In this document: piece by piece, positions 388 to 37,465 of the stretch | Numbering within the stretch: the stretch's first letter is position 1 | Layout: each line of letters opens with the position of its first letter | Assembly: GCF_001884135.1 (NCBI RefSeq) | Contig: NZ_MAOC01000069.1 | Span: 62,001-126,000 of the forward strand | Length of the DNA: 64,000 bases | Direction: 5' to 3' | Source: Bacillus nitratireducens | GTDB lineage: Bacteria > Bacillota > Bacilli > Bacillales > Bacillaceae_G | Made by a program: the position numbers and the translations under genes | The notes under the pieces: generated by a model | What the model saw: the letters and a program-made list of their open reading frames with translations, nothing else | Told to the model about the DNA's origin: nothing | Databases searched by the model: none

Positions 388-410
388 TTACTTCCCCCTT
401 TATATACCTA

Positions 411-1010: not shown

Positions 1011-1104
1011 TTCTGCTTATATTTAAGTTTTTCATTCAATTATTGCACTGCGTTTTAAAATAATTTCTAATATGTTCAACACATCAGCCATTCATTTTTA
1101 ACAC

Positions 1105-1760: not shown

Positions 1761-1834
1761 TCTTTTAAATGTTTAATTCAGTTTTATTTCCTCTTCTTAT
1801 TTTATTGACATCACATCAAAAAATGTATTGATTC

Positions 1835-3202: not shown

Positions 3203-3207
3203 TTATC

Positions 3208-20023: not shown

Positions 20024-20132
20024 TTCTATCTTCCTCTCAAGTCATTATTTCGTAAGCGATGGTGTATATAGCAATGTTATTTTTGTTTTCAATGCGAACC
20101 TTTCGTTTACAAAATATAGATTAAGCGTTATA

Positions 20133-20155
20133 GGTAAAGATGAGATGCAGATTAT
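20133..20155 (-). promoter_or_regulatory. Regulon motif, site A
   Basis: On the minus strand: ATCTGCAT-CTC-ATCTTTA, two ATCT-type half-sites 11 bp apart, about 110 bp upstream of the SGNH lipoprotein start. It is the most divergent of four copies. The 20156-20459 stretch has no recognisable gene. Confidence 0.5.
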
Positions 20156-20459
20156 ATAGATAGAATTTAAAGAATCAACAGTTTAAAAATTAGTTATTAA
20201 ATAACCTCGTAAAAAGAATAGGTAAACGCTTATTTTTTTGAAATTAGGTATAAGGAAATACGTTTTATAATCAATGCAGCGGTTTGTTAATGAATGATTT
20301 CAATATAGTAAATACGAGCCAAATAAAGAGGAAATGAAATGTACCAATTGCAATAGTTCACTTCCCTTTATAAATTAGATTTATATAAACATTACACACA
20401 TTAACAGAAGTCATTTGATAATAAAAACATACTTTTCCTTCGCCAGGCAATTCTCAACA

Positions 20460-20502
20460 AAAAAAAGCTAATTCCCTGTACACTAAGGAAATTAGCTTTT
20501 AG
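20460..20502 (-). terminator. Rho-independent terminator
   Basis: AAAAGCTAATTcCCT / AGGAAATTAGCTTTT hairpin with a T run on the minus strand, about 150 bp after the deacetylase gene. No gene is seen between 20503 and 20647. Confidence 0.8.
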
Positions 20503-20647
20503 CTTATTTATTGACTTATAAGTTGTTCAAAAAATGTAGTAACATGTACGGTTTTTATGTTTCAGAAAATAATCATACTCCTTGAGAAGTGAATCGGTTA
20601 CCTACGATAAATCAATACACTACCCTATAACAATCCCTATTCATATG

Positions 20648-21490: not shown

Positions 21491-21606
21491 TATTTTCCGA
21501 TCCTTTCCCTATTAATTTTCATATTCATTATTTATAAGGCTGAGCCTTTACTCGACTGAATCATTCGTTTCAACCGATGTTTACAATAAATAGATTAATA
21601 GAGATG

Positions 21607-21633
21607 GATAAAGATAAAATGCAGATAATGTCG
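21607..21633 (-). promoter_or_regulatory. Regulon motif, site B
   Basis: On the minus strand: CGACATTATCTGCAT then TTTATCTTTATC. It is nearly identical to site C over more than 25 bases. It lies about 117 bp upstream of the deacetylase start. Confidence 0.65.
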
Positions 21634-21699
21634 AAATCAGTTAAAGAATAAGGTTAAGTTAATTCTTAAATTTGAAAACTGGATATACACCCAAAATAA

Positions 21700-21745
21700 A
21701 AAATACTACTCTTCCTAATTAAGATTTAGAAAGAATAGTATTTTT
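21700..21745 (-). terminator. Rho-independent terminator
   Basis: A long hairpin (AAATACTAcTCTTcCTAA paired with TTTAGaAAGAaTAGTATTT) with a T run on the minus strand, just after the amidase gene. Confidence 0.85.
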
Positions 21746-21760
21746 CTATTTGTCCATTTA

Positions 21761-22444
21761 TTACATCGTAAAATAATTAATAATGCCATCCACAATACCT
21801 TTTTGCGATTTTGTTTGGAATTCTTCTGAATTCATTCTTTTTTCATCACTGGAATTAGATGTAAATCCTAACTCAATTAAGATAGATGGAGAAGGATTTT
21901 CTCGTAAGACAAGAAAATCACTTCCATGAATGCCTCTATCACGGCTGTCTATATTTTGATCAAAAATAGCTTCTTGTACGGTCTTAGCTAACTTTTTATC
22001 TTTCCTTTTATTAGCTCCATAATGAGTTGTTATTCCTTTTACATTTGTATCCTCAAAAGCATCATGATGAATGCTGATATACAGGTCTGCCGAATGGTCG
22101 TTAGCTACTTTGACACGCGCTTGTAATTCTTCCTTTTGCTTCGTTTCTGGAAGTAAGCTTGTATCTTTTTCGCGTGTTAGTATCACTTTTGCATCCGTTC
22201 TTTCCTCTAATTCTTTTTTTATATTTTGTGCTACTTTTAAATTAAGATCTTTTTCAATCGTTCCAAATTTCTTTCCTTTCGTCCCTCTATCTCCTCCACC
22301 ATGCCCCGGATCAATTACAATTGTTTTTCCTCTTAATCGTAAATCCTCTTGTGATATATTTTTATGCCCCTTAGCATGTATGAAACTAACGCCTGTACCC
22401 ATTATTAATATAATAAACAAAAGCAATATCGCTCTTTTTTTCAT
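21761..22444 (-). CDS. N-acetylmuramoyl-L-alanine amidase (Amidase_3)
   Basis: A 227-residue secreted enzyme with a signal peptide ending near FIHAKG and a single Amidase_3 catalytic domain. Zinc ligands are in VIDPGHGGGDRG (His), IEKDLNLKVA (Glu) and YISIHHDAF (His). The catalytic Glu is in SILIELGFTSN. It cleaves the bond between MurNAc and the stem peptide. There is no wall-binding domain, so it resembles short CwlC/CwlD-type amidases. A motif copy lies 60 bp upstream. Its neighbours (deacetylase, sensor kinase) suggest a coordinated wall-remodelling response. Confidence 0.9.
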   Translation of the reverse strand: MKKRAILLLFIILIMGTGVSFIHAKGHKNISQEDLRLRGKTIVIDPGHGGGDRGTKGKKFGTIEKDLNLKVAQNIKKELEERTDAKVILTREKDTSLLPETKQKEELQARVKVANDHSADLYISIHHDAFEDTNVKGITTHYGANKRKDKKLAKTVQEAIFDQNIDSRDRGIHGSDFLVLRENPSPSILIELGFTSNSSDEKRMNSEEFQTKSQKGIVDGIINYFTM

Positions 22445-22503
22445 TTTAACAATCTCCTTATCAGCTTCTCATTCTGTTTCTAATGAAAATAGTAATGAAT
22501 GCT

Positions 22504-22530
22504 GATAAAGATAAAATGCAGACAATGTCG
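22504..22530 (-). promoter_or_regulatory. Regulon motif, site C
   Basis: On the minus strand: CGACATTGTCTGCAT then TTTATCTTTATC, 60 bp upstream of the amidase ATG. It is nearly identical to site B. Confidence 0.65.
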
Positions 22531-22549
22531 ATTTTGTTTAAAATCGACA

Positions 22550-22583
22550 AAAACGTGTAGAACGAAAATTCTACACGTTTTTA
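22550..22583 (-). terminator. Rho-independent terminator overlapping kinase stop
   Basis: AAACGTGTAGAa / tTCTACACGTTT stem followed by Ts. The sensor-kinase stop codon (22571-22573) lies inside the hairpin. Confidence 0.85.
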
Positions 22584-24355
22584 TTTAAATAGAAGAAAAA
22601 TAATACTCCATCTTCTGTATTCAAAACACCATATTCCACGCCATGCAGTTCTAATATATTTTTTGAAATAGCAAGACCCAATCCTGTTCCACCTTTGGAG
22701 CGTTGACGAGACGTATCTCCTCGATAAAAACGATCCCATATTTTCTCTAAATGTTCTAGTTCAATATGTGCTCCTTTATTTTCTACACATACTTTTACAC
22801 GTTCATTCTCTTCTATTGTAGAAATAATAATATTCTCATGTTCTGGTGTATAACGAATCGCATTTGTAATAAAGTTAGTAACCACCTGTTCTATTCGATG
22901 TGGATTTGCAACAACTTCAATTTTAGAAAGTTGTTTATGCACATGTAATTGCTTAGCTGTTATATCCGAGGTTAATTGCTCACATATATAATCAATCATC
23001 TCGTCAATATGGAAAACATCCATTTCCATTTTATACGTACCAGATTCGAATTTTGCTAACTCCAGCATATCAATAATGAGCATATCCATTTTATCTACTT
23101 CTTTTGACATTGCTTTAAAGTAATAATCCTTTTTATTACTAGCAACACCATCCTCCAAAATTGAAATACAGCTCTTCATAATACTTAAAGGTGTTTTTAA
23201 CTCATGTGAAACACCCGCAATAAATTCTTTACGTGTATTTTCTAATTGCTTTTCTTTCTCTATATCTTGCTGCAATTGATGAATATACGAATGCAACGCT
23301 TTAGAAAGTGTATTAATATTTTGTGATAAATCACCTATTTCATCCTTTGTAGTAATAGGTATCATCTCTGAGAAATCTAAGCCTGCGATTTTTTTTGTAG
23401 TATCATTTATTTGTAATAGTGGTTTGGCAATTTTCTTTGAGTAATAGAACGATATCAACACGATTAGAATCAATACAAATAGAATTAAATATACATAATA
23501 ATCCTTTATCATTTGCACAGCTTCATCAACTGGTTGCAATGATGTCATAGCAAATATGTAATTTACCTTACCATCTGCATCTTTTGTTGGTTTGATTAAT
23601 AGTTTATATTTAATATCATTTTCTTCATAATCGACTATTTCTGTAGAAGTAATATTACTTGATTTTTGATTTAATATTAAATCAACCTGAAATTGTTTTA
23701 TTCTATCTATTAACACACGATTTCCATAAATAGAGTTAGTTCCTACAGTACCCTCCGGTAACTGCACGTTCTTAATGCTTCCTGCTAAATATAATTGCGA
23801 ACTTTCTTTTGAAGATGCGTTTTTTTGTCCATATAACATTTCTGATAGTTGCTTGTTCTCCAGCCCAACATTCTTCTCTTTTATTGTTAACATCGCAGGG
23901 ACCACTATATCCCCCTTCTGTAATCCGTCGATAATAATATGATTCCCCTGTTCTAAACTATATTTTATCCTTTGTATATCTTCTAAATTAATAAAACTAT
24001 ACAACGGTATCTGAATTAAACGTTCAGAAAAGGTCTTATTTTCGTTAGGATCTAACTGAATTTCTAAAGAAAAATCATTTGCATATTTTATATTTCCTAC
24101 ACTATCTAACGTTGTAATCCATGTCGCATTATCTTGGTAGAAATTTTGTTCCAACTCTTGAATCCTTTTCGCGTCATCTCCAGCTTTTATATATGCCTTT
24201 TCAAAGGATTGAATATTCGTTTTAATATCATTAACTTTTCGATTCGAATAATATTGCTTAAAAAATATGGTTTGTCCAATAAAAATAGTCACTAAAATAA
24301 GTGTGCATAATGCCGTTGTTAATATAAATAGTTTTAATACAATTCCTTTTTTCAT
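22571..24355 (-). CDS. Membrane sensor histidine kinase
   Basis: 594 residues. TM1 (about 7-29), an extracellular sensor domain of about 250 residues, TM2 (about 288-306), a HAMP-like linker, a HisKA box GVSHELKTPLSIMKS with the phospho-acceptor His, and HATPase_c with N box FITNAIRYTPEH, G1-type EKIWDRFYRGD and G2 KGGTGLGLAISK. Its ATG overlaps the response-regulator stop (ATGA), so the pair is coupled. The sensor domain is not recognised. Genes with the shared upstream motif (SGNH, deacetylase, amidase) point to a cell-wall signal, but this is inference. Confidence 0.92.
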   Translation of the reverse strand: MKKGIVLKLFILTTALCTLILVTIFIGQTIFFKQYYSNRKVNDIKTNIQSFEKAYIKAGDDAKRIQELEQNFYQDNATWITTLDSVGNIKYANDFSLEIQLDPNENKTFSERLIQIPLYSFINLEDIQRIKYSLEQGNHIIIDGLQKGDIVVPAMLTIKEKNVGLENKQLSEMLYGQKNASSKESSQLYLAGSIKNVQLPEGTVGTNSIYGNRVLIDRIKQFQVDLILNQKSSNITSTEIVDYEENDIKYKLLIKPTKDADGKVNYIFAMTSLQPVDEAVQMIKDYYVYLILFVLILIVLISFYYSKKIAKPLLQINDTTKKIAGLDFSEMIPITTKDEIGDLSQNINTLSKALHSYIHQLQQDIEKEKQLENTRKEFIAGVSHELKTPLSIMKSCISILEDGVASNKKDYYFKAMSKEVDKMDMLIIDMLELAKFESGTYKMEMDVFHIDEMIDYICEQLTSDITAKQLHVHKQLSKIEVVANPHRIEQVVTNFITNAIRYTPEHENIIISTIEENERVKVCVENKGAHIELEHLEKIWDRFYRGDTSRQRSKGGTGLGLAISKNILELHGVEYGVLNTEDGVLFFFYLNKNV

Positions 24356-25038
24356 ACCTGTCCCTCAAATTTATAACCAGTTCGCACAACGGTTACAATA
24401 CAAGTCGCTTTTTGCCCTAATTTATGACGCAAATTACGAATATGACTATTAACAGTACGATCATCCCCAGCGAATTCATAACCCCAAATTTTAGTGATTA
24501 GTTGTTCTCTCGAAATTACAATCCCTTGATTTTGCATGAAATACGTTAATATTTCAAATTCTGTATGTGTCATACTTATGTCTTCCCCATCTACAGTTAC
24601 TGTACGAGAAGGGAAATGTACATGGATACCACTACTAGTTAATGTGTCTGCAGTAGATACATTAACAGTGGAAGAATATCGGCTTTCAATTAATCGTTTT
24701 GCCCTTGCCAATAAAATAGGAGGACTATATGGCTTGGTAACATAATCATCCGCTCCCAGTTCAAATCCGAGTAAGGTATCATCCTCATCCACCCGAGCCG
24801 TTAGCATAATAATAGGTACATTAGATTTCTTCCGAATTCGCCGGCAAACCGACCAACCATCTAATTCCGGTAACATAATGTCTAAAATAATTAAATGTAC
24901 CTCATGTTCTTCAAATATAGATAACGCTTCTTTCCCATCAATCGCCTCTAAAACGTTATACCCTTCGTTTAGTAGGTAATCCTTCATAATTTCACGTAAA
25001 ATATCTTCATCTTCTACAATTAAAATTGTTCTTTGCAT
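24352..25038 (-). CDS. OmpR/PhoB-type response regulator
   Basis: 228 residues. The receiver domain has acidic pocket EDED, phospho-acceptor Asp53 in LIILDIMLPELDG, Thr in IMLTAR and Lys in DDYVTKPYSP. A C-terminal winged helix follows (ILTYFMQNQGIVISREQLITKIWGYEF, DDRTVNSHIRNLRHKLG). It partners the kinase immediately downstream. A motif copy lies about 133 bp upstream, which suggests autoregulation. ORFs downstream on the same strand carry the same motif, making them candidate targets. Confidence 0.93.
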   Translation of the reverse strand: MQRTILIVEDEDILREIMKDYLLNEGYNVLEAIDGKEALSIFEEHEVHLIILDIMLPELDGWSVCRRIRKKSNVPIIMLTARVDEDDTLLGFELGADDYVTKPYSPPILLARAKRLIESRYSSTVNVSTADTLTSSGIHVHFPSRTVTVDGEDISMTHTEFEILTYFMQNQGIVISREQLITKIWGYEFAGDDRTVNSHIRNLRHKLGQKATCIVTVVRTGYKFEGQV

Positions 25039-25170
25039 ATTTCATCTTCCCCACGATTCATTTTATTTTTATGAAGAAATAGTTCATTTTATATGTTAAC
25101 CAATTAGAAATCTTTCACTATTTCTGTCACCACTAAATGCAACATAGTTATATAAAGATAATAGTATGCT

Positions 25171-25198
25171 GATATAAAGATAAAATGCAGAGATAGCC
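25171..25198 (-). promoter_or_regulatory. Regulon motif, site D
   Basis: On the minus strand: CTCTGCAT then TTTATCTTTATATC, about 133 bp upstream of the response regulator. A second TATAAAGATAA copy lies about 23 bp away on its start-proximal side (25150-25160). Confidence 0.6.
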
Positions 25199-25229
25199 TT
25201 AACATTGAAATTCTATTATGAATTTTGTA

Positions 25230-25312
25230 TTTGTAGGTAATGGGCTACCGCCACATCCCCATCAAGCTAAGACAATGAATAATCCCCAAAACGAAATAAA
25301 TAGTTTGGGGAT
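25230..25312. repeat. IS231-like end fragment and hairpin
   Basis: CACATCCCCATCAAGCTAAG (25252-25271) resembles IS231-type terminal repeats found elsewhere in the window. It is followed by an ATCCCCAAA / TTTGGGGAT hairpin (25282-25312) that may terminate the DUF1801 gene on the minus strand. Nothing else is recognised between 25039 and 25422 apart from site D. Confidence 0.5.
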
Positions 25313-25422
25313 GTTTATGTTTTATAATTGCTAGATATAAAACATGAATTTTTAAGGACAGTATATAGAAATCTAAAAGAGCTCCTTCCTATTTTATTTT
25401 TTAATTTCACCTATAAATTTTA

Positions 25423-25845
25423 TTAATGATTTGGATACGTTTCTTTCAAAAAACTTATAGATTGTTTAATTAGCGCTTTTAGAACATTACTATCAATATC
25501 TGCTATTTTATTAATATAAATACACGATTTTCCAGAGGTATACTTTCCAAAGTTTTTTAATAGTTCTTCTCGCTTAGGGTCACCAGTAGCAAAATATAGA
25601 CTAATTTTAGCTTTTCTCGGGGAAAATCCTACTAATGGAGCATCTCCCTCATGACCGGATGCATATTTATAATGGTACGTACCAAATCCTATAATGCTTG
25701 GTCCCCACATTTTTGCTGTATAGCCTGTTGTTTCAGTAAATATATCTAATAATTGATATGCGTTTTCTCGTTTTTTAAGATTTTCAACACTTTCAATAAA
25801 TTCAATTACACTATTGTTAGTTTCTTTTGTTTTAAGTTTGTACAT
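25423..25845 (-). CDS. DUF1801-family protein
   Basis: A 140-residue soluble protein with DUF1801 features: TAKMWGPSIIGFGTYHYKY, a GFSPRKAKISLYF strand and KSCIYINKIADID. The fold is YdhG-like. Relatives are small cytosolic proteins of unknown function. AAAAGGAGTGA precedes the ATG. The gene lies at the edge of an IS-rich region and looks intact. Confidence 0.85.
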   Translation of the reverse strand: MYKLKTKETNNSVIEFIESVENLKKRENAYQLLDIFTETTGYTAKMWGPSIIGFGTYHYKYASGHEGDAPLVGFSPRKAKISLYFATGDPKREELLKNFGKYTSGKSCIYINKIADIDSNVLKALIKQSISFLKETYPNH

Positions 25846-26139
25846 ATTAAAATCACTCCTTTTTAGATATAGGTTTCATAACATATTTAATTATTATATA
25901 TGGCTCATCATACATGTCTCTCGACTTTAAATGTTTTATGACCCTTAAATACACAAAATCTTTATTATTATGGGGTGGATATGGGAGACGTATATAGTGC
26001 AGTAAGATATTTGTTGGTTTTCTACTTGTATCAGTATTTGGTCTGGGATCTTTCGTGAATATCTTACTTTTATTTAGCCGCAGCTTCAAGTGTTTTGCCT
26101 TTCTTTTCAAGGTTACCAATCTTTCCTATGACTTTTCGA

Positions 26140-26400
26140 ATAACACTTAATGTGTAGCACAAGAAGTGCAATCCCACTCACGACGATTTAGATTTTTAAC
26201 GTCTTTGATACAACAATAACTTGCTTCCTGTACCATTTCCCTTTGTAGTTCAACATACTTCTAAACTGTGACCACGATACTTCGTTGATTGCTTTTGCAA
26301 GCTTTCTATTTTTGAGCATATTATTGATTTGTAAATCTTCCATACTGGTGACATCGTGATTTTTGATGATCTTAGCAAAAAGTTTATACAAATAAACAGC
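26140..26400 (-). pseudogene. Decayed TnpB (IS200/IS605 OrfB) fragment
   Basis: The open part (26188-26391) encodes TKIIKNHD-like FAKIIKNHDVTSMEDLQINN with the RuvC-like Glu in MEDL, then EVSWSQFRSMLNYKGKWYRKQVIVVSK. The frame then breaks. In the next frame KNLNRREWDCTSCATH continues, which is the second half of the TnpB zinc ribbon. The first CxxC segment, about 15 residues, is deleted at the break. The N-terminal half is absent. No functional protein can be made. Confidence 0.8.
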
Positions 26401-26452
26401 TCTTGCATTTGTGATTCTCTATACTCTTTTTTCTAGAATGTACCCTCATTTA

Positions 26453-26472
26453 GAAAACTTTGCAACAGAACC
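26453..26472. repeat. Orphan IS6/IS240-type terminal repeat
   Basis: GAAAACTTTGCAACAGAACC reads as the outer right end of an IS240-like IS6 element. No matching left end is adjacent. Confidence 0.65.
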
Positions 26473-27355
26473 CGTTAACCGATTGACTCTATTAATACCC
26501 TATTCAATGTCCTTTCATCTCCGTTAGAGCTTTTATATGTTCTTAAAATTGTCAAAATCACTTTGATTTTTCATAAAAAAATTTTGATATTATATTGGTA
26601 CAAGGTCATGTGTTCCCTTAACCCAAAACCTTACTGATGCCCTGTAACCCTTGACGGGGCTTTTTATTTATCTTTTTTCTAGAAGTTAAAGATACCTCTT
26701 GATGACTGCCACACTATTGTATACTCCCCTAGCTTTTAAATTACGTGTCATTGCTAAGATTTTCTTTCGTTCATATTCGTGCGCGCTGTTCTCTATCCAT
26801 CCCTCATAATCACTTTTATCTATCCTCTCTATCACATATGCTAATACAACAAGAACCAGCAATATACCAATACCATGATTAGCGAGTTACACCTAGTCCT
26901 CACTTGTTGTTACATAGGATATTTTACTTTGAGAAGAATCTGAATCTCTAACTCTCTCATTCGTCAGCAATTTACACTCAATAATTTTGAGCTCGTCCTC
27001 ATCTAATAAGTTATCAAGCACCCTTTCGACCTCATGCACCGTCCACTTATTTGTATTCCTTGGATTACGCAACTCAGGAAACAAACTGATTATTGATTCC
27101 TTCTTGCTGCTCTACTCCACGCTCGGTACGTGTTTTTAAAGTGCGGTCCTCTTTTAAGGTGCTAACTACTTCCTTTTATACCTTCTTCTTCGTTTCTTTG
27201 TCCAATATGGGTAATAAAGACAATTGAACCACTTAAAATTCCTATATTTTTAAATTTGTCATTTTAATAATAATTAAGGTACGTGAAATTTTTGCATCCC
27301 TAACATTAATGCTCCTATCACTGTGAATTTTAAATAGAAGCATTATGAACAGGAG
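26473..27355. other. Degenerate region with broken ORFs and a possible short RNA
   Basis: No intact gene is supported. Around 26560-26680 a possible promoter (TTTTGATATTATATTGG) is followed by a GCCCTGT / ACGGGGC hairpin and TTTTTATTT, which could be a short RNA or a stray terminator. On the minus strand, 26893-27084 reads NTNKWTVHEVERVLDNLLDE. After a stop, the same frame continues as a membrane-helix peptide (LLVLVVLAYVIERI). A further frame near 27110-27190 reads VSTLKEDRTLKTRTERG. These look like decayed phage- or plasmid-type genes that I cannot name. Confidence 0.4.
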
Positions 27356-27722
27356 ATTATTCTATTACCAGTTAGATGTTATCTCTGGTACTAAGTTATC
27401 GAGATTGGTAGAAATGGATCGAAGCTAAATAAACGCGTTCGTCATCATTTGAAGAAAACAAATAATGACGAACGCGATTCTATGAAACATATATCAAAGT
27501 TAAAGAAAAATGAATATACTTGTATCGAATTGTGGATTCTAGAGGAAACACTGTTGATTTTATTTAAGTAAAAATAGAAAAGCGAAATCAGCTAAACGTT
27601 TCTTCAAAAGGGCTGTAGCTTCTTGTCATACCTCAAAACCTCGTGTCCTTACAGTTGATAAAAAAACAGCCTATCCAAAAGCCATAAAACAATCACCAAA
27701 AGCAAGAAACCTACCTACAGGA
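27356..27722 (+). pseudogene. IS6-family transposase, 5' part, split by insertion
   Basis: Degenerate plus-strand translation reads IILLPVRCYLWY, LNKRVRHHLKKTNN, then SAKRFFKRAVASCH and VLTVDKKTAYPKAIKQ, matching the IS6/IS240 transposase (compare the relic at 45249). It carries stops and frameshifts. It ends at KARNLPTG, exactly where the 7.24-kb unit begins. The C-terminal part resumes at 34965 with PTGIKLLQMKDLNNIVEQDH. Confidence 0.85.
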
Positions 27723-27758
27723 CTTAGTGACAGGGTTGCTGCTCTAGACCGAAAAGTA
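27723..27758 (+). repeat. Left terminal inverted repeat
   Basis: Begins CTTAGTGACAGGGTTGCTGC and continues TCTAGACCGAAAAGTA. It matches the reverse complement of the right end at 31 of 36 positions. Confidence 0.8.
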
Positions 27759-27913
27759 GAGTTTTCATCCTCTATTCAAAAGATTACACTCAAAATAGTG
27801 ATTATTCTAATGTTAGGGGATTGACAGCTTTATTTTATCATCACGTCAATCTATATGGAACTTTTGAACCCGATATGGATCAGCGAATACCTATTAAGTT
27901 GAAAGTGTCATAG
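27731..27913 (+). pseudogene. Possible transposase C-terminal remnant
   Basis: A 60-codon open frame without a start begins inside the left terminal repeat. It encodes NVRGLTALFYHHVNLYGTF then EPDMDQRIPIKLKVS. The HVNLYG block resembles the end of Tn3-family transposases (HIN..G.Y). It reads inward from the terminus, which is not the usual Tn3 arrangement, so the identification is tentative. The 27914-28147 stretch has no recognised gene. Confidence 0.35.
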
Positions 27914-28147
27914 TTTCCATCATTTCGATTGGAGATAAAACCAGCTAATATCCCGTCAGATGACCTACTGATATAAGCGGATCAAGATGAGTGTAATCAT
28001 ATTTCCTTAGTTTATTTTAATGACAGGTTTTTTGCCGTTTTTGGTCTAAAAATTTTCGTGATTATAGTATTCTGTTAAATGGGTAACTTCATAAGTGTGA
28101 ACCGGATTTCAACATCCATTTAATCTTTTACAATTGAGGCGGTTTCT

Positions 28148-28197
28148 TTAAAAGAATCATACATATTAGTCATGCTAATTTGTATGATCCTTTTAAT
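28148..28197. terminator. Hairpin, likely terminator
   Basis: AAAAGaATCATACA / TGTATGATcCTTTT with an inner TTAG/CTAA pair, flanked by T and A runs. It lies about 125 bp beyond the DUF202 gene end on the minus strand. Confidence 0.6.
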
Positions 28198-28321
28198 TGA
28201 GCCATTAATAATACTTATTTTGCGTAAATAACAAAATAGTGATCCTTTTATAATATGGCAGAAATTCGCAAAAATCTTTCGAGGATTAATAAATTGGTTT
28301 ATTTTAAAAATATTAACCAGA

Positions 28322-28711
28322 CTACATAAATAATAAGAAAGAAAGATACATAAAAATAATGAAAATTAAGAAGGAGAATAGGGAAGTTATAAAGAAAATA
28401 CAGTGGTTAGAAGGAATAAATATACCATTTTGAATTTCTTTCCTTTTCTTTGAATATTGAAGGGTTGCCAATACTCCTATTATAAAACCTACAATACATG
28501 CAAAAATGCCTAGGAATGTTGCTACATTATTAATATACTGATTTGAACTAATTTTAATAGTAAAATGCAAAGAAGTTGTCAAAAAACCTACTCCTACAAT
28601 AGATACAGCAGTCCGTATCCAAGCTAAATAAGTTCTTTCATTAGCTAAATGTTGTTGTGCATATTTTACACTTTCTTCTGTTACTACTTTCATTTTATTT
28701 AAACCTTCCAT
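28322..28711 (-). CDS. DUF202 (YidH-type) membrane protein
   Basis: 129 residues with the DUF202 signature HLANERTYLAWIRTAVSIVGVGF and three membrane helices (about 30-50, 62-85, 103-128). Such proteins are small inner-membrane proteins of unknown function. AAGGGGG precedes the ATG with a longish spacer; the second Met (MKVV) is an alternative start. It lies inside the transposon-like unit, left of the cargo operon. Link to the cargo is not evident. Confidence 0.8.
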   Translation of the reverse strand: MEGLNKMKVVTEESVKYAQQHLANERTYLAWIRTAVSIVGVGFLTTSLHFTIKISSNQYINNVATFLGIFACIVGFIIGVLATLQYSKKRKEIQNGIFIPSNHCIFFITSLFSFLIFIIFMYLSFLLFM

Positions 28712-28952
28712 AAATGGTAATCCCCCTTCCTGTAGCGTTTTTGTGAGAGTCTCGTATTCTGTGAAAGTTTATGTTATATGGTGAATACAAGGATAAAGAT
28801 TTTTTCTTACTTTAGTAAGTTTCTGTTTTCCGTCTACTCCACTAAAACAGAGTATAGGAAAAAATCCTCTGACAGTTCCTAAAATTATAAATGATTTTTT
28901 TACTTTCTAAGCGCTTGTCATCTTATACGATCCATCTAATAGATATTGTTTT

Positions 28953-28989
28953 GTTGATGTGCATGGGACAATATCCCATGCACATCAAC
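28953..28989. repeat. Perfect inverted repeat related to IS231 ends
   Basis: 15-bp arms GTTGATGTGCATGGG / CCCATGCACATCAAC with a 7-bp spacer, followed by TTAAGA. The CATCAACTTAAGA edge matches IS231-type ends. Confidence 0.6.
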
Positions 28990-29004
28990 TTAAGAGAAAA
29001 ATCC

Positions 29005-29133
29005 CCCATACCCATCAAGCTAAGATATTTAATCATTCCAAAAGTGAAATTTACCTTTCTTCAGTTGTCTATGTAAATCATTTCACTTTCTCTTTTGAAG
29101 GTCATTTTTTTCTTAGGCTTGATGGAGATGGTA
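29005..29133. repeat. Foldback MITE-like element with IS231-type ends
   Basis: Outer ends CCCATCAAGCTAAGA and TCTTAGGCTTGATGG are inverted copies. An inner pair AAAGTGAAAT / ATTTCACTTT makes the element fold back. It has no coding capacity. It accounts for most of the gap between the DUF202 and hydrolase genes. Confidence 0.6.
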
Positions 29134-29200
29134 TCACCACAGTATTTAGCGGAAAACATTCGATAATCTTAAAAGCCTTCACTCTCAACTTCTATTGGTT

Positions 29201-30385
29201 TTATTGCTTTAGTACATACTTTATTATCGTTTGAAAAGCAATAGTTTCCTTTGCACGCGGCAGATGAGAAGATAGTTTTACAATTACTATATCAGCTTTA
29301 GGTGCAATGTATATTTGCTGGTCAAAACGCCCACGGGCTGAATATCCGCCAAATTGATCATGGCTAATCCACCATTGATTAAGGTAAGAGAATTCAGCAA
29401 GATGACTATGAGTAATACTTTCTGCAAGATATTTTCGGTTACCACCTTTTTTAATGTCCTTTATTATATGTTCCGGAATAATTTGTTGGCCATTGTAGTA
29501 ACCATCATTAAGCATCATTTCACCAAATCGTGCCAAGTCACGCAATGTAGCCCGCATTCCGCAATTGGAAATATCCGTACCGATTAAATCTACTTGCATC
29601 TCTGCGTTTTCTTCTGCCCCCAGTTTAGACCAGATTTTTTCTTGAATTAATTCCGCCATATTTTTTCCAACCAAGCGTTTGACAATCCATCCCAATGTTT
29701 CTGTTTGTCCATTTTCATAATAAAATGCAGTACCAGGTATTTTATCTATTTTACTCGACAGCATAAATTCATAAAGGTTTTCCGGTCCAGTGTAGTTATC
29801 AGGTTTTGGCATTGAACCTGATGCAATAAAAATGGGTGTACCCCGGCCTATTCCCCATGGTGTATCGGCTTCCATATATTTCACAGGAACCTGCATATCA
29901 AGCAATTGCTGAACAGTCCCTTCACCAAGTCCTGTTCCTTTTAATTCAGGTACATAGAAGGAAGCTTTTTTATTTACATCTAGCAATCCTTCATCAGCAA
30001 GCAAACTAACAATCAAACCTACAAAAGATTTTGTAGCAGAGTTCATTGCATGTAGTTCATAAGATTTATAACCGTTAAAATAGTTCTCATACATGACTTT
30101 CCCTTTATGCATCACTAAAAAAGCATCCGTATTAGTTCTTTCAAGATAGGCTAAAACACTTTCACCATTGTTATCGTTTATTTTTTCTAAATCTAACTGA
30201 TCTTTAGTATATGATAATTGGGTGGACTTTTGGTTTCCTCTCCATATGATACGGCTAGCGCTTAGTTCACCGCTATGACAATACTGCTGCAAATTTTTTT
30301 GAGAAGTAAACCAATTATCCTTCGTAACAATATCTTCTGGACGAGGTGGAAAAACTTTCATTTCATTCTTTGTAATGGACTGCAT
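29201..30385 (-). CDS. NylB-like serine hydrolase (class C beta-lactamase fold)
   Basis: 394 residues with no signal peptide. Active-site motifs of the beta-lactamase/esterase/6-aminohexanoate-dimer hydrolase group are present: SxxK in NSATKSFVG and YxN in FYYENGQTE. GYSARGRFDQQIYI fits the third motif region. NylB-like enzymes cleave amide or ester bonds in the cytoplasm. GGAGGG precedes the ATG. It follows the MFS gene by 28 bp on the same strand and is the last gene of the cargo set, so it may hydrolyse the compound brought in by that transporter. The natural substrate is unknown. Confidence 0.8.
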   Translation of the reverse strand: MQSITKNEMKVFPPRPEDIVTKDNWFTSQKNLQQYCHSGELSASRIIWRGNQKSTQLSYTKDQLDLEKINDNNGESVLAYLERTNTDAFLVMHKGKVMYENYFNGYKSYELHAMNSATKSFVGLIVSLLADEGLLDVNKKASFYVPELKGTGLGEGTVQQLLDMQVPVKYMEADTPWGIGRGTPIFIASGSMPKPDNYTGPENLYEFMLSSKIDKIPGTAFYYENGQTETLGWIVKRLVGKNMAELIQEKIWSKLGAEENAEMQVDLIGTDISNCGMRATLRDLARFGEMMLNDGYYNGQQIIPEHIIKDIKKGGNRKYLAESITHSHLAEFSYLNQWWISHDQFGGYSARGRFDQQIYIAPKADIVIVKLSSHLPRAKETIAFQTIIKYVLKQ

Positions 30386-30413
30386 GACAATCCCTCCTGC
30401 TTTTTTATTTTAG

Positions 30414-31649
30414 TTAAAAAGATTGCTCTATAAACACATTTTCTTTTGCTTCTTTGACGTTGTTTTTAATCGTTAGAGCCACAATTGCCCCTGCCAATGA
30501 AGCAGAAATTAAAAACCAGGAAGCAACATTGTAAGAACCGTTAAACACAGTAAGAACGAACCCAATTACGGCTGGAGAGATACCCCCGGCAATTTGTGCG
30601 CCAAAACTAATAAACCCTGTAACAGAACCAGTTAATTCCTTTGCTGAGTATTTAATGGTAATTGTGTATAGTGATGTTCCAATAAAAGCAATTGAAATAG
30701 AATTTAAGGTCAAATAAACAATTCCATGTGAAACAGACGTTGCATTAAACATCAAATAAAGAAGGATGGCAGATGAAATTGATCCTGCCACTGCCAAGTA
30801 TTTTTCTCTTCCACTCATATATTTATCTAAAATCCAGCCGCTTACATTAAACATAAGAAAGGAGGCAAGATACGGTATGGCCATCAAGGCACTTGCTGAC
30901 AATAAATCTAAACCCTTACTTACCCAATAAGTAGGCATCCAGGAAATAATACCCCAGTTCACTATATTTGAAAAAAATTTAGTGAAAAATATCTTCCAAA
31001 AATTTTTTGTTTCAAATAACTTTTTATAAGGAACTTTTTTTTGATTTTGCTTCTCTTTATTTATTTGTATATCTTCCGGAGATTTTAGATAAACCCAAAA
31101 TGCCCATGCTATCAAAACACCTATAATACCAATGCTGACAAACATCCATCTCCACCCAAGGGAAACCACCATAACCCCTATTGTTATTGAGCCTAGCGCA
31201 CCACCGAACGTTTGTGCAGATAGAAAGAAGGAACTTGCTCTACCCCTTTCGTTTTCGGGAAAGTTTTCGGAAATAGATCTTAAACTGGCAGGAAAAACAC
31301 TTCCTTCCCCAATACCAAACAGGAAACGAAACAAAAGTAGTGATGCAAATGACCAAGCAAAACTCGTAAGAGAAGTAAAAATCGAAAAAGCTAAGATGGA
31401 AAGTACTAAAATTTTACGTGATCCATATTTATCTGTAAGCCATCCTCCTAATGGGTGCATAAGGGCGTAGCTGAAAAAGAAAATACTTATGATCAAGCCT
31501 GATTCAAAAGAATTAAGCTGCAGGTCTTTCTGAATCGGGATGATAGCTACGTTTATCGCCGCTTTGTCAATGTAACTTACTGTCATTCCTATAAATAAGA
31601 GACTAATAACAATAGATTTACGCTTACGGTCGGTTAAATTATTTTGCAT
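30414..31649 (-). CDS. MFS transporter (anion:cation symporter type)
   Basis: 411 residues, twelve membrane helices. The ACS-family signature includes FIGMTVSYIDKAAINVAI, the loop GGWLTDKYGSRKILV, and RFLFGIGEGSVFPASLRSIS with the second-half equivalents. ACS members import organic acids such as hexuronates, phthalate or glucarate. It sits between the CoA-transferase and the NylB-like hydrolase on one strand, which suggests uptake of a carboxylate or amide that is then activated or hydrolysed. GAGGGCG precedes the ATG. A 224-bp gap separates it from the upstream CoA-transferase gene. Confidence 0.85.
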   Translation of the reverse strand: MQNNLTDRKRKSIVISLLFIGMTVSYIDKAAINVAIIPIQKDLQLNSFESGLIISIFFFSYALMHPLGGWLTDKYGSRKILVLSILAFSIFTSLTSFAWSFASLLLFRFLFGIGEGSVFPASLRSISENFPENERGRASSFFLSAQTFGGALGSITIGVMVVSLGWRWMFVSIGIIGVLIAWAFWVYLKSPEDIQINKEKQNQKKVPYKKLFETKNFWKIFFTKFFSNIVNWGIISWMPTYWVSKGLDLLSASALMAIPYLASFLMFNVSGWILDKYMSGREKYLAVAGSISSAILLYLMFNATSVSHGIVYLTLNSISIAFIGTSLYTITIKYSAKELTGSVTGFISFGAQIAGGISPAVIGFVLTVFNGSYNVASWFLISASLAGAIVALTIKNNVKEAKENVFIEQSF

Positions 31650-31873
31650 TTATTCACGCCCTCTTCTTAAAAAATGGTGATTGAATCGATCCTCCTTACC
31701 TTCTAACAATAAACACTAAATAAAGATCTTGCTCATGGATTAACACAAATAACCGAAGTAAAGCGCTTAAATATCAATTCATATAGTTTTTCTCGCTATC
31801 ATATTTAACTGATACATTATTCATCTTCCTATACATGTAAGCCTTTACATTTTTTACGGGAAGTATATTCGTT

Positions 31874-33055
31874 TTAAATGATATTAGCATTTTTTAACTC
31901 ACTAAGTTTGTTTTGATCCAAACCTAATAGTTGTTCATAAATTTCATAGTTGTGTGCCCCTACTTCCGGACATAGCCACTTAACTGTACCTGGTGTTTTA
32001 GACATTTTGGGTACGATACCTTGTACGGTTACGTTTTTTTTGAGTTGGTCATCAAAAATGGATAGTAAGTTTTCCCTTACTATATATTGTGGATCTTTAA
32101 TAATATCCACTACGGAATAAACGGACCCATGTGCTACTTTAAAGGTAGTTAAAATAACTACTAATTCTTCATACACATGACTGGAAAAGAAGTCTTTTAA
32201 ATATTTATCCAGATCTTCTCTATGCTTGACCCTTAATTCATTTGTAAGAAATCTTTTATCATCAACAAGCTCGGGATGACCAATCGCGTTCATAAGACGT
32301 TTGAACATGTTGTCTGTAGATGCTGGAATAATAATCCAACGATTATCTTTTGTAAGATATAAATCATTCGGGGCAACACCAGGATTATGGGTTCCAACTC
32401 TTTCTCTTACTTTTCCTTTGGTATCATAGTCAACAATAAAATCTTCCATTACTCTAAATAGTGGTTCATACAAGGATAAATCAATTAATTGACCTTCTCC
32501 TGTCTGTTTAAAGTGATATAGTGCAAGCATGGTGGAAAATGCAGCATATACTCCTCCGAGACCATCAGCAATTGCGAAACCGGAAGGGATAGGCTTTTCA
32601 TTAGGATGACCAGTAATGTTCATTAATCCTGAAAAACCCTCAGCCACTCGTGCAAAACCGGGATTTTCTGCTAATGGACCATTTCTTCCATATGCAGAAA
32701 AATGCAGCATTACAATATTTGGTTTTACTTTAACTAAGTCCTCATAATCTATTCGCCACTTTCTCAACGTTTCAGGTCTAAAATTCGTTATAACTACATC
32801 TGATTTTTCTACAAGTTGATAAAAAACTTCAACAGCTTCTTCCTTATGCAAATCTAATGTAATACATTTTTTATTTCGATTTGTTACCTTCCATGTGTTA
32901 CTTCCCCAGTTACGGCTGGCATCTCCCTTTTCAGGTTGCTCAATTTTAATCACTTCTGCTCCGAAATCACCTAACAGATTAGAAGCAAGTGGTGCAGCTA
33001 ATACAGATGATACATCTAAAACTCTTATTCCATCTAAAATCGAATTCGAACTCAT
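31874..33055 (-). CDS. Class III (CaiB/BaiF-type) CoA-transferase
   Basis: 393 residues. Typical opening LDGIRVLDVSSVLAAPLASNLLGDFGAEVIKIEQPEKGD, then WKVTNRNKKCITLDL, and the catalytic-Asp region in GQLIDLSLYEPLFRVMED. These enzymes move CoA between carboxylic acids. AGGAGGGG precedes the ATG. It is divergent from the LysR regulator, with 129 bp between them, and heads a likely operon with the MFS and NylB-like genes. The acid activated is not known. Confidence 0.9.
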   Translation of the reverse strand: MSSNSILDGIRVLDVSSVLAAPLASNLLGDFGAEVIKIEQPEKGDASRNWGSNTWKVTNRNKKCITLDLHKEEAVEVFYQLVEKSDVVITNFRPETLRKWRIDYEDLVKVKPNIVMLHFSAYGRNGPLAENPGFARVAEGFSGLMNITGHPNEKPIPSGFAIADGLGGVYAAFSTMLALYHFKQTGEGQLIDLSLYEPLFRVMEDFIVDYDTKGKVRERVGTHNPGVAPNDLYLTKDNRWIIIPASTDNMFKRLMNAIGHPELVDDKRFLTNELRVKHREDLDKYLKDFFSSHVYEELVVILTTFKVAHGSVYSVVDIIKDPQYIVRENLLSIFDDQLKKNVTVQGIVPKMSKTPGTVKWLCPEVGAHNYEIYEQLLGLDQNKLSELKNANII

Positions 33056-33184
33056 AAAAGATCCCCTCCTTATTAATTGTCAGAAAATATTATTTCTTCA
33101 AATTTATTTTACAATTGTTTTTTTTGCATGTAAAATATCATTATGTCATATATACTTGATTAAAAATCATACAAAGGAGCCACA

Positions 33185-34087
33185 ATGAATATTGAGCAGT
33201 TAGAACATGTTGTAGAAGTTGCAAAGATGAAATCTTTCTCCATTGCTTCTGAAAACCTGAGAATTTCTCAGTCTGGTATTAGCAGATCCATTAGTAATTT
33301 AGAAAAAGAGTTAGGTGTGAAACTATTTGAACGTTCAAGATTAGGAACCATACTCACAGATGATGGTGAAAAAATTGTAAAAATAGCGTATGAAATTGTA
33401 TCAAAGCTCCAACAGTTAAAAGAAGAGGCTAAAATACAAACGGCCAGTATCAATGGGAAATTAAGAATCTCAGCTAGTCCGAGTATGTTAATGACCATTT
33501 TGTTAAAAGCCATACCACTTTTTAAAAAAGATTATCCCGGTATTGAACTGGAAATAACAGAAAAACCAGCCGATGAAATTATTGAGAATCTGCGAAAAAA
33601 TAGGATCGATATTGGTTTAACATTCATTAACGAACATATACAAAAATCAAATGATATCAAATTTGGTACGTTAGTGGACGGTAAAATAAATGTATGTGTC
33701 AATAAAAATTCCCCTTTATCTTTAAATCACGCGTTAACTCCAAAAGAAGTCTCAATGCACCCCCTAGCTATGTACAACGGTGTGAATATGAAATATTTTA
33801 TTGATCATTTTTTTCATGAGCATGGGGAAATGGATGTTTTATTTACATCCAACAATATAGAGGCGGTTAAAAGAGCAGTTATTGAGGGAATAGCGATAGC
33901 TTTTATTGTTGATTTAGCATTAAAAAATGATATCTACGTAAAGAATGGGGACATCGTTCTTATTCCACTAACAGATTGTGGCATTACGACAATTCCATTT
34001 GGATGGATTCGATTAAAAAACCAATATTTAAGCTATGCAGAAAAAGAATTTATTAAGTATTTGCAGCTTGTTTCAACAAATTATTAG
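33185..34087 (+). CDS. LysR-family transcriptional regulator
   Basis: 300 residues. The N-terminal winged helix (MNIEQLEHVVEVAKMKSFSI, LRISQSGISRSISNLEKELG) is followed by a substrate-binding domain with two Rossmann-like halves. It is divergent from the CoA-transferase gene, the standard LysR arrangement, so it probably controls the cargo operon in response to the substrate. AAAGGAGCC precedes the ATG. The intergenic region is AT-rich; I did not find a clear T-N11-A palindrome. Confidence 0.92.
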   Translation: MNIEQLEHVVEVAKMKSFSIASENLRISQSGISRSISNLEKELGVKLFERSRLGTILTDDGEKIVKIAYEIVSKLQQLKEEAKIQTASINGKLRISASPSMLMTILLKAIPLFKKDYPGIELEITEKPADEIIENLRKNRIDIGLTFINEHIQKSNDIKFGTLVDGKINVCVNKNSPLSLNHALTPKEVSMHPLAMYNGVNMKYFIDHFFHEHGEMDVLFTSNNIEAVKRAVIEGIAIAFIVDLALKNDIYVKNGDIVLIPLTDCGITTIPFGWIRLKNQYLSYAEKEFIKYLQLVSTNY

Positions 34088-34332
34088 CAGGACGCATAAA
34101 GCTGGCGATAAGATCCAACTGTTGTTTATAGAAAGTTTAAATCATTTTCTACTGTGTTATTCCACAAACTGGCCCTTTTCTTGAATAACGTGTTTAAACG
34201 ATCATTTAATTACATTCGAGCACACAGAGACTAAATTAAAGAACTTTTTTTACTCAACATGATTACCAAACACCTTTATAACAAAGTTACCTCTAGTAAT
34301 ATGAAAATATACAAGTTTACTGGAGGTTACAT

Positions 34333-34899
34333 ATGATTATTGGTTATGCCCGTGTTTCTACTATTGACCAAAACTTAGATCGTCAAATTAGTACTCTTTC
34401 TGAATACGGTTGTGAAAAAATAGTAAAAGAGAAGTTTACTGGTACTATTAAAGATCGAAAAGGTCTTCATCAACTTTTTGATATGCTCAGGAATGGCGAT
34501 ACAGTTGTAGTGGAGAGTATCTCCCGTTTAGGACGTAAAACATTAGATATCCTCAACATTATTCAACAGTTGGAAGAGACCGGAATGCAATTCATTTCTT
34601 TAAAGGAAAGTATGGATACAATAACCTCTACAGGCAAAGCGATGTTCCAAATGATGTGCGTAATTGCTAAATTAGAAAGAAATCTTATTGCTGAGAGAGT
34701 AAAAGAAGGACTTGAGGCACGTAAAAAGCGTGGAAAAACATTAGGTAGACCCAAACTAGATAAAGAAAAGCTCACTGTTGCACTTCGGATGTATGACAGT
34801 AAAGAATATTCTGTTAAAGAGATTGTCTCAGCAACCGGAATATTTAAAGGTTCTTTATATAGGGCAATAAATCGAAGAAAACTAAGAAAAATAAACTAA
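34333..34899 (+). CDS. Serine recombinase (Tn3-type resolvase)
   Basis: 188 residues. The catalytic domain opens MIIGYARVSTIDQNLDRQIS with the nucleophile Ser. It continues with VVESISRLGRKTLDILNII, then the E-helix region KAMFQMMCVIAKLERNLIAERVKEG, and ends in a helix-turn-helix (YSVKEIVSATGIFKGSLYRAI). It is normal length for a resolvase/invertase. It lies 65 bp inside the right terminal repeat of the 7.24-kb unit, as expected for cointegrate resolution. The 245-bp stretch upstream (34088-34332) has no gene and could contain the resolution site. Confidence 0.92.
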   Translation: MIIGYARVSTIDQNLDRQISTLSEYGCEKIVKEKFTGTIKDRKGLHQLFDMLRNGDTVVVESISRLGRKTLDILNIIQQLEETGMQFISLKESMDTITSTGKAMFQMMCVIAKLERNLIAERVKEGLEARKKRGKTLGRPKLDKEKLTVALRMYDSKEYSVKEIVSATGIFKGSLYRAINRRKLRKIN

Positions 34900-34928
34900 T
34901 AAGGAGTATTTTATTTTTTCTCTACATT

Positions 34929-34964
34929 TACTTTGCGGTCTAGAGCAAGAACCCTGCCATTAAG
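34929..34964 (-). repeat. Right terminal inverted repeat
   Basis: Reverse complement begins CTTAATGGCAGGGTTCTTGC and continues TCTAGACCGCAAAGTA. It is followed at once by CCTACAGGA, the same 9 bp that precede the left end. Confidence 0.8.
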
Positions 34965-35205
34965 CCTACAGGAATCAAGTTACTACAGATGAAAGATCTA
35001 AACAACATTGTCGAACAAGACCATCGATTTATTAAAAAATGGTTCTAATATATACTAATGTCCAAATTTTTTCACAGAGCAACCAAAAACACTTGCTGAA
35101 ATAGAAGCTATGCATATGATTAGAAAAGGACAGACTTTCCACGGGAAAAAGTCTGTCCAAAAGCAGATACAACTGATTAATATTCTCTTTTGTCTTATCG
35201 CATAA
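34965..35205 (+). pseudogene. IS6-family transposase, 3' part, split by insertion
   Basis: Resumes with PTGIKLLQMKDLNNIVEQDH (catalytic Glu in VEQDH), then RFIKKWF and a stop. Shifted frames give RATKTLAEIEAMHMIRKGQ and KSVQKQIQLINILFCLIA, the usual C-terminus of IS240-type transposases. It is the other half of the relic at 27356-27722. Confidence 0.85.
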
Positions 35206-35207
35206 AC

Positions 35208-35240
35208 AGTCATTCCATTAGGAATGACTCATTCTTTTTA
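35208..35240 (+). terminator. Hairpin with T run
   Basis: AGTCATTCC-ATTA-GGAATGACT followed by a T-rich stretch, just after the IS6 relic. It fits a plus-strand terminator. Confidence 0.6.
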
Positions 35241-35276
35241 CTCTTCATTATCTTCTTTTACCAGCACCTAAAAAAC

Positions 35277-35313
35277 CGCCATCCTTTCCTATGATTCTAC
35301 AGAAAGAATAGCG
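35277..35313. repeat. 37-bp dispersed repeat, copy 1
   Basis: CGCCATCCTTTCCTATGATT then CTACAGAAAGAATAGCG. It matches 61431-61467 at 35 of 37 positions in the same orientation. Both copies sit downstream of minus-strand genes and can form a hairpin. Confidence 0.7.
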
Positions 35314-35419
35314 CTTTTTTGTTATCCGGCTATAAAAAATTCAAATATTAGTATTATCCTGTTAAGTAATGGCTAATTATATCATTTCCATTCACAATCA
35401 AAATATAGGAATGATTTCT

Positions 35420-37465
35420 TTAGCAATACACAGCAGACTTTGATTTAAGAAAATACAAATACTCTATTCCGGCATCAGTGATCTTTGTACCGGCCCGCCC
35501 TCTGCCTTTTACGACAAATCCTTCACTTTCTAAAATATCCAGGCGGCGACGGATTTGCTGTGGGGATAAAGCAAAGTCTGATTCTTTGCTTTTACTTGAA
35601 AGTTGATCTCTGCTTGCCGCCTTTCCTTTTTCGTTACATTGCTTGATTACTTCCAAGATAAAAACATGCTCCTTCATTTCCAGTATACTTCCACATACGG
35701 GATATTCGGATTTCACGCTGCCCCCCTCTTGTCCCAGCATGGACGGAAGATCTCCTTTCGTCACGACATTTCCCTCACAAATTGTCAGCATATAATCAAT
35801 TGTGCTTTTTAATTCTCGTATATTTCCAGGCCATTCATATTGCATGAAATACTCCAGCACATCTTGTTCTATCTTTACCCATTTTCCGCTCTTTGTGATG
35901 AAATGCTTAATCAAAATTGGTATATCCGCTCTTCTCTCAATGAGTGGTGGAATGCAGAGATTAAGTACATTCAACCGGTAAAATAAATCGACTTTGAATG
36001 AACCGGCCCTTATCTTTCCTTGAAGATCTTTATTTGTTGCGGTAATCACTCGAACATTGACAGGTATAATTCTTACACCACCGATTCTGCGGATTTCTCC
36101 CTCCTGCAGAACGCGCAGCAAATGTGATTGAACAGTAAGACTCATGTCCCCGATTTCATCCAAAAAGATAGTTCCGTTATCCGCTAATTCAAACAGACCT
36201 TTCTTGCCCCCCTTTTGTGCTCCTGTAAATGTCCCTTCTTCGTAACCAAACAATTCACTTTCAAGCAGGCTCTCTGTTAATGCGCTACAATTTACAGCCA
36301 GAAACGGTCCGTTTTTTCGCAATGAATGCTCATGAATAGCATGGGCAAACAGTTCTTTTCCTGTTCCTGTTTCACCCTGAATTAAAATCGGATGTTCCGA
36401 TAAGGCAAGTTTCTTGGCGATTCGCTTACGCTCTTTCATTACAATATGTTCGCCGATAATATCCTCAAATCCGTATTTTGTATGAAATCCTTTATTACGC
36501 ATTTCTCTTTGCGCTGTTTTTTCAATTTCAAAGGCTTGATGTACACTCTTAAAAGTTGCGACAATTGTATTTTCTTGCATCATTTGCAAACGAAAAATTA
36601 CGATATCCACGCCATCTATGTCGAAGAACTTGCTTTCATCCTTTCCATTCATGATGAAATCGGTAATATCCCGACGACTCATCACATGTTCTACATACTC
36701 ATTAACCACATCTTGCGCCACAATATGAAACAATGCCGTAAGACGTTCATTGAATACCGTAATCCGCCCTTCCTGGTTAACGACTAATATTCCATCATCG
36801 ACAGTTCCTAACACATTTTGGATGTGCTCACTCATCTGCTTAGCATCCCGCTCTGCATGTAATAACTTACGTTGTAATTCAATGATATTGCTAATATACC
36901 TTTCTGAAATCTTCGAGGATATATCCTTATTCAAACCACAACATTCTACAACTTCCAGAATTGTTGTCATATCAAAAAGACGTACACCTATATCAATTAC
37001 TTCTTTTATGTAAGAAGGGCACAGATGTGTTTCTCCTGGCGAAACAGCAATTCGAACATCATCATAAAACAATACCCCCTTCCGAAAAGGGATAAATTGA
37101 ATATGATTTATACCAAGTTGATATAAGGATTCAATAAGATTTATTGTTGCATCATCATTATCATTCACCACTAGAACTGATGAATCTTCAGGTATTCTTA
37201 AAAGTTTATCAATGTATTCATGATGAACTGTTCTCTTTCCCACAATTATTTTCTCAGCATTCACGCTATACATACCTTTTGTTTGATCATAAACAGAAGC
37301 TGATGAATACAAAATAATTGTATCTTCAAGAGACTGCGGTATTCCCTCATCCGCAGCATGGCTTTTAATATAAACATAGTCTCCAAGCAATTGTTCTAGT
37401 TGCTCCTGTAAGGCTTGCGTTGTTTTTGAGCTTCCAGCTATAAGTGTAAGTGAGGATTTTAACAT
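35420..37465 (-). CDS. Sigma-54-dependent transcriptional activator
   Basis: 681 residues. An N-terminal signal-sensing region (about 1-200) is followed by a PAS domain (about 215-320). The AAA+ domain has Walker A GETGTGKELFAHAIHEHS, the sigma-54 contact loop in YEEGTFTGAQKGG (GTFTGA for GAFTGA), Walker B ADNGTIFLDEIGDM and an R-finger region. The C-terminus is not a Fis-type helix but a MarR/LexA-like winged helix (FALSPQQIRRRLDILESEGF), which is unusual. It is divergent from a sigma-54 promoter at 37580 that drives the transporter-iadA operon, so it is very likely the activator of that operon. Confidence 0.9.
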   Translation of the reverse strand: MLKSSLTLIAGSSKTTQALQEQLEQLLGDYVYIKSHAADEGIPQSLEDTIILYSSASVYDQTKGMYSVNAEKIIVGKRTVHHEYIDKLLRIPEDSSVLVVNDNDDATINLIESLYQLGINHIQFIPFRKGVLFYDDVRIAVSPGETHLCPSYIKEVIDIGVRLFDMTTILEVVECCGLNKDISSKISERYISNIIELQRKLLHAERDAKQMSEHIQNVLGTVDDGILVVNQEGRITVFNERLTALFHIVAQDVVNEYVEHVMSRRDITDFIMNGKDESKFFDIDGVDIVIFRLQMMQENTIVATFKSVHQAFEIEKTAQREMRNKGFHTKYGFEDIIGEHIVMKERKRIAKKLALSEHPILIQGETGTGKELFAHAIHEHSLRKNGPFLAVNCSALTESLLESELFGYEEGTFTGAQKGGKKGLFELADNGTIFLDEIGDMSLTVQSHLLRVLQEGEIRRIGGVRIIPVNVRVITATNKDLQGKIRAGSFKVDLFYRLNVLNLCIPPLIERRADIPILIKHFITKSGKWVKIEQDVLEYFMQYEWPGNIRELKSTIDYMLTICEGNVVTKGDLPSMLGQEGGSVKSEYPVCGSILEMKEHVFILEVIKQCNEKGKAASRDQLSSKSKESDFALSPQQIRRRLDILESEGFVVKGRGRAGTKITDAGIEYLYFLKSKSAVYC

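Follow-up and report, generated by a model that had tools for sequence, protein, structure and literature searches.

This locus raises the question of what kind of mobile element splits an IS6-family transposase gene in Bacillus nitratireducens (contig NZ_MAOC01000069.1, positions 62,001 to 126,000; this 64,000-nucleotide stretch, numbered from its first letter, is the window analyzed here). The initial annotation described a transposon-like unit of unclear class, with inverted ends beginning CTTA, a 9-bp target duplication, a serine resolvase gene at the right end and no intact transposase; Tn3 ancestry was suggested, with the duplication length (9, not 5) and the terminal bases (CTTA, not GGGG) listed as objections. 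Comparison with related loci from other genomes and plasmids (denoted by L numbers) leads to a different account: the element, located at 27721–34966 (7,246 bp), is a defective member of a known family; with a probability of about 95%, it is a unit transposon of the Tn3 family, defective and belonging to a Bacillaceae lineage. The apparent new transposon class is thereby removed.

Transposase, resolvase and target of the element

In intact relatives, a full-length tnpA gene sits about 70 bp inside the same terminal inverted repeat (IR) as that of the window element (L009, L011, L025, L050, L051, L080, L081, L082 and L085, as well as L079, where the gene is split over two frames). The tnpA open reading frame (ORF) of L009 and L011 encodes 998 amino acids, and the L025 TnpA matches both the NCBIfam model transpos_Tn3 (E 8.8e-253) and the solved structures of the Tn4430 TnpA (E 1.8e-67). 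The initial annotation named the discovery of its ends on a known kind of element as a refutation, and this is what several Bacillaceae show, with an intact transposase of the Tn3 family lying between such ends. The assignment to an unclear class is therefore refuted, and the suggestion of Tn3 ancestry was right. The relatives with both ends share the gene order IR-tnpA-cargo-tnpR-IR (L049, L051, L079, L080 and L082, along with L050 and L081, in which the tnpR match is incomplete), and the window element retains this order.

What remains of tnpA in the window is a leader remnant (27759–27820, forward strand) joined at TTAGGGGA to a remnant of the 3' end with some downstream bases (27810–27958, forward strand; TAG at 27911–27913). 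Together with the IR, the left part (27723–27820, 98 bp) is 97% identical to L009 4264–4361, and the right part (~150 bp) is 89% identical to L009 7264–7413; by alignment ends, 2,913 bp between TTAGGGGA repeats are gone relative to L009. The ORF list contains no intact transposase within 27721–34966, as initially stated. Given the lack of an intact tnpA and the 2.9-kb deletion, we file the element as a defective derivative; with neither an intact tnpA nor a complete res region, it does not qualify as an autonomous Tn3 element.

At the right end, the annotated serine resolvase gene, tnpR, is an open ORF (34333–34899, forward strand, 188 aa), and the segment 34262–34966 is 95.6% identical to P. 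megaterium plasmids (L001–L003). The res region upstream of tnpR (34157–34332, forward strand) is truncated. Within ATTACCAAA(N)ACC, its upstream arm runs directly into the site III side; compared with L003, L025 and L082, site II is absent, as is the right half of site I. The region is 97 bp shorter than in these three loci and 84 bp shorter than in L001. Sites I–III are predicted sites, named after the usual organization of Tn3 res (see also PMC13367494).

The interruption of an IS6-family gene is supported by two uninterrupted copies that represent the IS6 empty site. Both flanks of the element align, at 68–69% DNA identity, to one continuous IS6 gene in a P. megaterium NCT-2 plasmid (L002), where the gap between the two flank alignments comprises 57 bases, as many as the window contributes (44 + 13) if only one copy of the duplication is counted; the intact IS6 protein of L001 reads MPKGIQLRQVKYLNNIVEQDHRFIKK across the insertion site. 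The left gene fragment occupies 27426–27720 (forward strand; aligned to 27691, the remainder inferred from the spacing) and the right fragment 34967–35169 (forward strand; the aligned part starts at 34985). The interrupted copy is itself decayed. A chromosomal empty site was not found in the 14-kb stretches of three genomes (G470, G382 and G490), in which window positions 20000–35420 have no match; from about 35,421–35,439 onward, the right flank is common to all three at ~84–85% identity. Two more stretches related to the interrupted IS6 gene (68–71% DNA identity) lie elsewhere in the window, at 45469–45718 and 53114–53322, and an inverted repeat with 21-bp arms (90%) and a 7-nt loop is present inside the left fragment, at 27431–27479.

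Ends, target duplication and alternative origins

The IRs of the window element (27721–27758, forward strand, and 34929–34966, reverse strand) are 38 bp long and match at 32 of 38 positions. The 31 of 36 matches of the initially annotated ends stand (27723–27758 versus 34929–34964; 86%, five mismatches), but the true ends lie two bases outside CTTA. The left copy is the tnpA-side version of the repeat, as in L009, L011 and L016; its own tip is GA instead of GG, and the tip of the right copy is GG. Across the lineage, the 38-bp repeat reads GGC(T/C)TAGTGACAGGGT...CCGCAAAGTA, beginning with GGC(T/C)TA and closing with AAGTA. The length follows from the presence of GG directly 5' of the CTTA core in most contexts (55 of 61 distinct contexts with a scan query that included GG, and 67 of 73 with a query that lacked it, all loci gathered). 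At this 38-bp boundary, the window element is flanked by an exact 5-bp duplication, TACAG (27716–27720 and 34967–34971, unstranded), and exact 5-bp duplications also flank L050 (TTTAT), L079 (TTCTA), L082 (TACAA) and L101 (TTCTT). With the ends beginning GG outside CTTA and a duplication of 5 bp, the two objections to a Tn3 assignment find no support.

Several observations weigh against this assignment. Among 17 distinct adjacent convergent end pairs, 12 have no exact 5-bp duplication (the 5 that have one include the window); the left tip of the window element is GA; the repeats begin with GG only, not with the canonical GGGG, and do not end in the canonical TAAG; and the Tn3 library score was obtained for the relative L025 rather than for the stop-containing TnpA remnant of the window. 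The GGGG start and TAAG end are common but not universal among Tn3-family repeats. A plasmid relative with a 51% identical TnpA (L120) has canonical GGGG...TAAG ends and a 5-bp duplication, AGGTA; the lineage IR consensus, aligned in register, agrees with its end at 20 of 38 positions (best other offset, 12), a value reached by 2 of 10,000 shuffles, and the window ends match it at 18 (left) and 17 (right) of 38.

Alternatively, the element could belong to another class, either new or that of the IS4/IS231-type mobile cassettes; its ends would then be at CTTA, and its target duplication would measure 9 bp. The 9-bp repeat CCTACAGGA is indeed perfect (27714–27722 and 34965–34973), so the initial observation is correct as to the letters; the duplication itself, judged by the duplications of the relatives and the GG boundary, is the 5-bp TACAG. 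A 9-bp duplication counted from CTTA fails in all 4 other duplicated elements (L050, L079 and L082 computed, L101 by eye), the 5-bp duplications of which rule it out, and a 7-bp reading fails in 2 of the 3 relatives tested (L050, L079 and L082), holding in L050. The 9-bp reading arises from chance identity of two bases per side, the CC of the right tip coinciding with a target CC and the GA of the left tip with a target GA. The five bases beside the tip are A/T-rich (approximately TWNWA), and the sixth base is C in 64% of 69 distinct contexts, a count restricted to GG- or GA-tipped contexts; a C-N5-G target makes such false lengthening likely. The case shows how chance identity next to the ends can make a target duplication look longer than it is. 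With the same ends carrying an intact Tn3 TnpA and tnpA remnants retained at the left end of the window element, we find another class hardly credible and have dropped it. Almost as improbable is the joining of two unrelated ends by recombination or one-ended transposition, with no single transposition event: the 12 of 17 related end pairs that lack matching duplications would fit such an origin, but the window element has an exact one, and the spacing of its flanks is that of an uninterrupted IS6 gene.

A more serious contender, although in our judgment an unlikely one, is that the element was, in a way comparable to TIME-RES, a non-autonomous derivative of Tn3: it would have lacked a transposase even before its jump and been movable in trans by a related TnpA. 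The ends and the duplication are well preserved despite the lost tnpA, L108 carries an independent tnpA deletion, and TIME-RES offers a precedent (PMC4133298). A 262-bp IR-to-IR miniature in L101 (1277–1538) has its own exact duplication, which makes it seem that members of this lineage can move even when they lack a transposase; other 262-bp miniatures occur on Priestia flexa plasmids (L022 1087–1348 and 4469–4730; L023 3611–3872 and 4782–5043), with flanks that contain no matching duplication. Against such an origin, the matches listed for 397 genomes (two candidates scored per genome) include none that spans the tnpA-deletion junction of the window, and no second copy of the junction is found in the 9 plasmid records that match the window query (0 of 9 covering 80%). 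The IS6 target has decayed as well, which makes decay in place equally likely.

In the reading that we favor, the element comes from a lineage whose intact members are organized as IR - tnpA> - cargo - res - tnpR> - IR. It entered the IS6-family gene, presumably by replicative transposition of the Tn3 type, as the family suggests, and left TACAG as a 5-bp duplication; the target is A/T-rich, with C just before it. Nearly all of tnpA, some 2.9 kb, was lost between the two TTAGGGGA repeats, and a further 97 bp between two ATTACCAAA-type repeats, a loss that took site II and the right half of res site I. As a single copy, the element is compatible with deletions either before or after the insertion. 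The present element would probably be movable only by a related TnpA acting in trans, and cointegrate resolution should be poor despite the open tnpR.

Possible cargo exchange at res site I

The lineage shows an abrupt change in similarity at res site I. Ten elements (L001, L002, L003, L025, L028, L051, L079, L080, L082 and L109), were selected among the loci that match site I (18 distinct contexts, not all from different elements); the comparison took in a maximum of 3 kb upstream of the site and 0.8 kb downstream. Downstream of site I, all 45 pairs are similar (78.7–99.9%); upstream, similarity reaches site I in 10 pairs, 34 share nothing detected, and L079 and L109 have only a distant stretch in common. 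L002 and L003 are 99.1% identical downstream of the site with nothing shared upstream, whereas for L002 and L028 the identity is 98.8% across 3 kb of upstream sequence and 86.5% downstream; between L025 and L080, identity drops from 96–100% to background at site I.

At the level of sequence comparison, this pattern suggests cargo exchange at res. The cargo lies between tnpA and res-tnpR, so that recombination at site I would swap a portable half, producing varied cargo within one lineage. Tentatively, and at slightly less than even odds, we read the lineage as a cargo-exchange system in which recombination at res site I swaps the [res-tnpR-IR] half between elements, leaving many non-matching target duplications; homologous recombination in the shared half could also have produced the pattern. 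The lineage offers a case in which the exchange of cargo at a resolution site can be put to the test. The novelty of this observation is reduced by what is already on record: rearrangement of Tn3-family elements through res recombination is known (PMC13367494, citing work on Tn1721), and site-specific recombination has been suggested to have removed cargo from Bacillus transposons (PMC5133452).

Distribution, known systems and cargo

The ends, target preference and architecture described above define a Tn3 lineage present in many Bacillaceae, with spore-germination and metabolic cargo. The end core CAGGGTTNNTGCTCTAGACCG was detected in 17 stretches of a genome collection (by its description, one genome per species for 84,980 species) and in none of the viral contigs, and the 36-nt end matched 21 plasmid records, three of which, from Campylobacter, are weak (E 4) and were set aside as probable chance matches. 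An end with no more than 3 mismatches is present in 19 of 193 genomes of one family and in 14 of the 15 genomes from which the compared loci came; the left end of the window element matched 26 of the 397 genomes of the order. The miniatures also contain a res-like site I in L022 (2 mismatches), L101 (4) and L107 (3). One complete element (L051 965–9519) is flanked by TTTTA and TAAAA, which are inverted rather than direct; intramolecular transposition or inversion might leave such a pattern. Among the open PubMed Central papers listed by the literature searches, none was seen to describe the ends or the lineage.

The lineage resembles Tn3-family unit transposons (class II, with the Tn4430 TnpA as the solved homologue) in its 38-bp repeats, 5-bp A/T-rich duplications, TnpA of ~1000 aa in the intact relatives, and serine resolvase gene, tnpR, preceded by a res-like region. 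It differs in that the IR starts with GGC(T/C)TA instead of GGGG and the cargo lies between tnpA and tnpR; the window copy, in addition, lacks a usable tnpA, and its res is truncated. A repeat pair next to the lineage in L048 (GGGGTA...), which we take to be Tn1546-like, differs from the lineage repeat.

The TIME and TIME-RES elements (PMC4133298, PMC13367494), miniature elements derived from Tn3, combine Tn3 ends, and tnpR without tnpA, with 5-bp duplications; the present lineage likewise has miniatures, those of 262 bp in L022, L023 and L101. The window element, unlike these, is 7.2 kb long, carries five cargo genes (metabolic cargo) and has a broken res, and thus does not belong to TIME-RES, the members of which are small and carry tnpR and res with no other cargo. 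Another report (PMC5133452) describes Tn1546-type transposons with spoVA2mob and germination operons, which likewise come from Bacillus and encode tnpA and a resolvase along with spore cargo, and reports loss of transposition genes in them. TnMERI1 and TnMARS1 (PMC6920998) are also class II transposons from Bacillus and carry cargo along with tnpA and tnpR; the nested TnARS1, with a reported 5-bp duplication, has GGGG...TAAG ends and is set apart from the present lineage by this description rather than by direct sequence comparison.

The cargo of the window element comprises genes for a DUF202 membrane protein (28322–28711, reverse strand), a beta-lactamase-fold serine hydrolase (29201–30385, reverse), an MFS transporter (30414–31649, reverse), a CaiB/BaiF (class III) CoA-transferase (31874–33055, reverse) and a LysR-type regulator (33185–34087, forward). 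In P. megaterium CK7, a plasmid-borne cluster (L004) provides DNA matches to the DUF202 gene (79% identity), to the hydrolase and transporter genes jointly (~86%) and to part of the regulator gene (66%); it includes an annotated CoA-transferase of the same family, yet there is no DNA match to the window CoA-transferase gene. The L004 cluster additionally has an AMP-binding enzyme and an acyl-CoA dehydrogenase. The window cargo would probably serve organic-acid uptake and CoA activation. The G+C content gives no signal (33.8% in the element, 32.7% and 35.3% in the flanks). Short CCCATCAA.CTAAG-like motifs at 28959–29130 presumably resemble IS231 ends; the surrounding segment with these suspected ends (28880–29140, 261 bp) has no plasmid match.

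The relatives carry other cargo, namely, germination operons (L025, L081 and L082), copper genes (L080), and flavin and short-chain oxidoreductases (L051). In L009, ORFs that by eye resemble a spoVA-type operon (63–3562) lie just outside the complete tnpA end.

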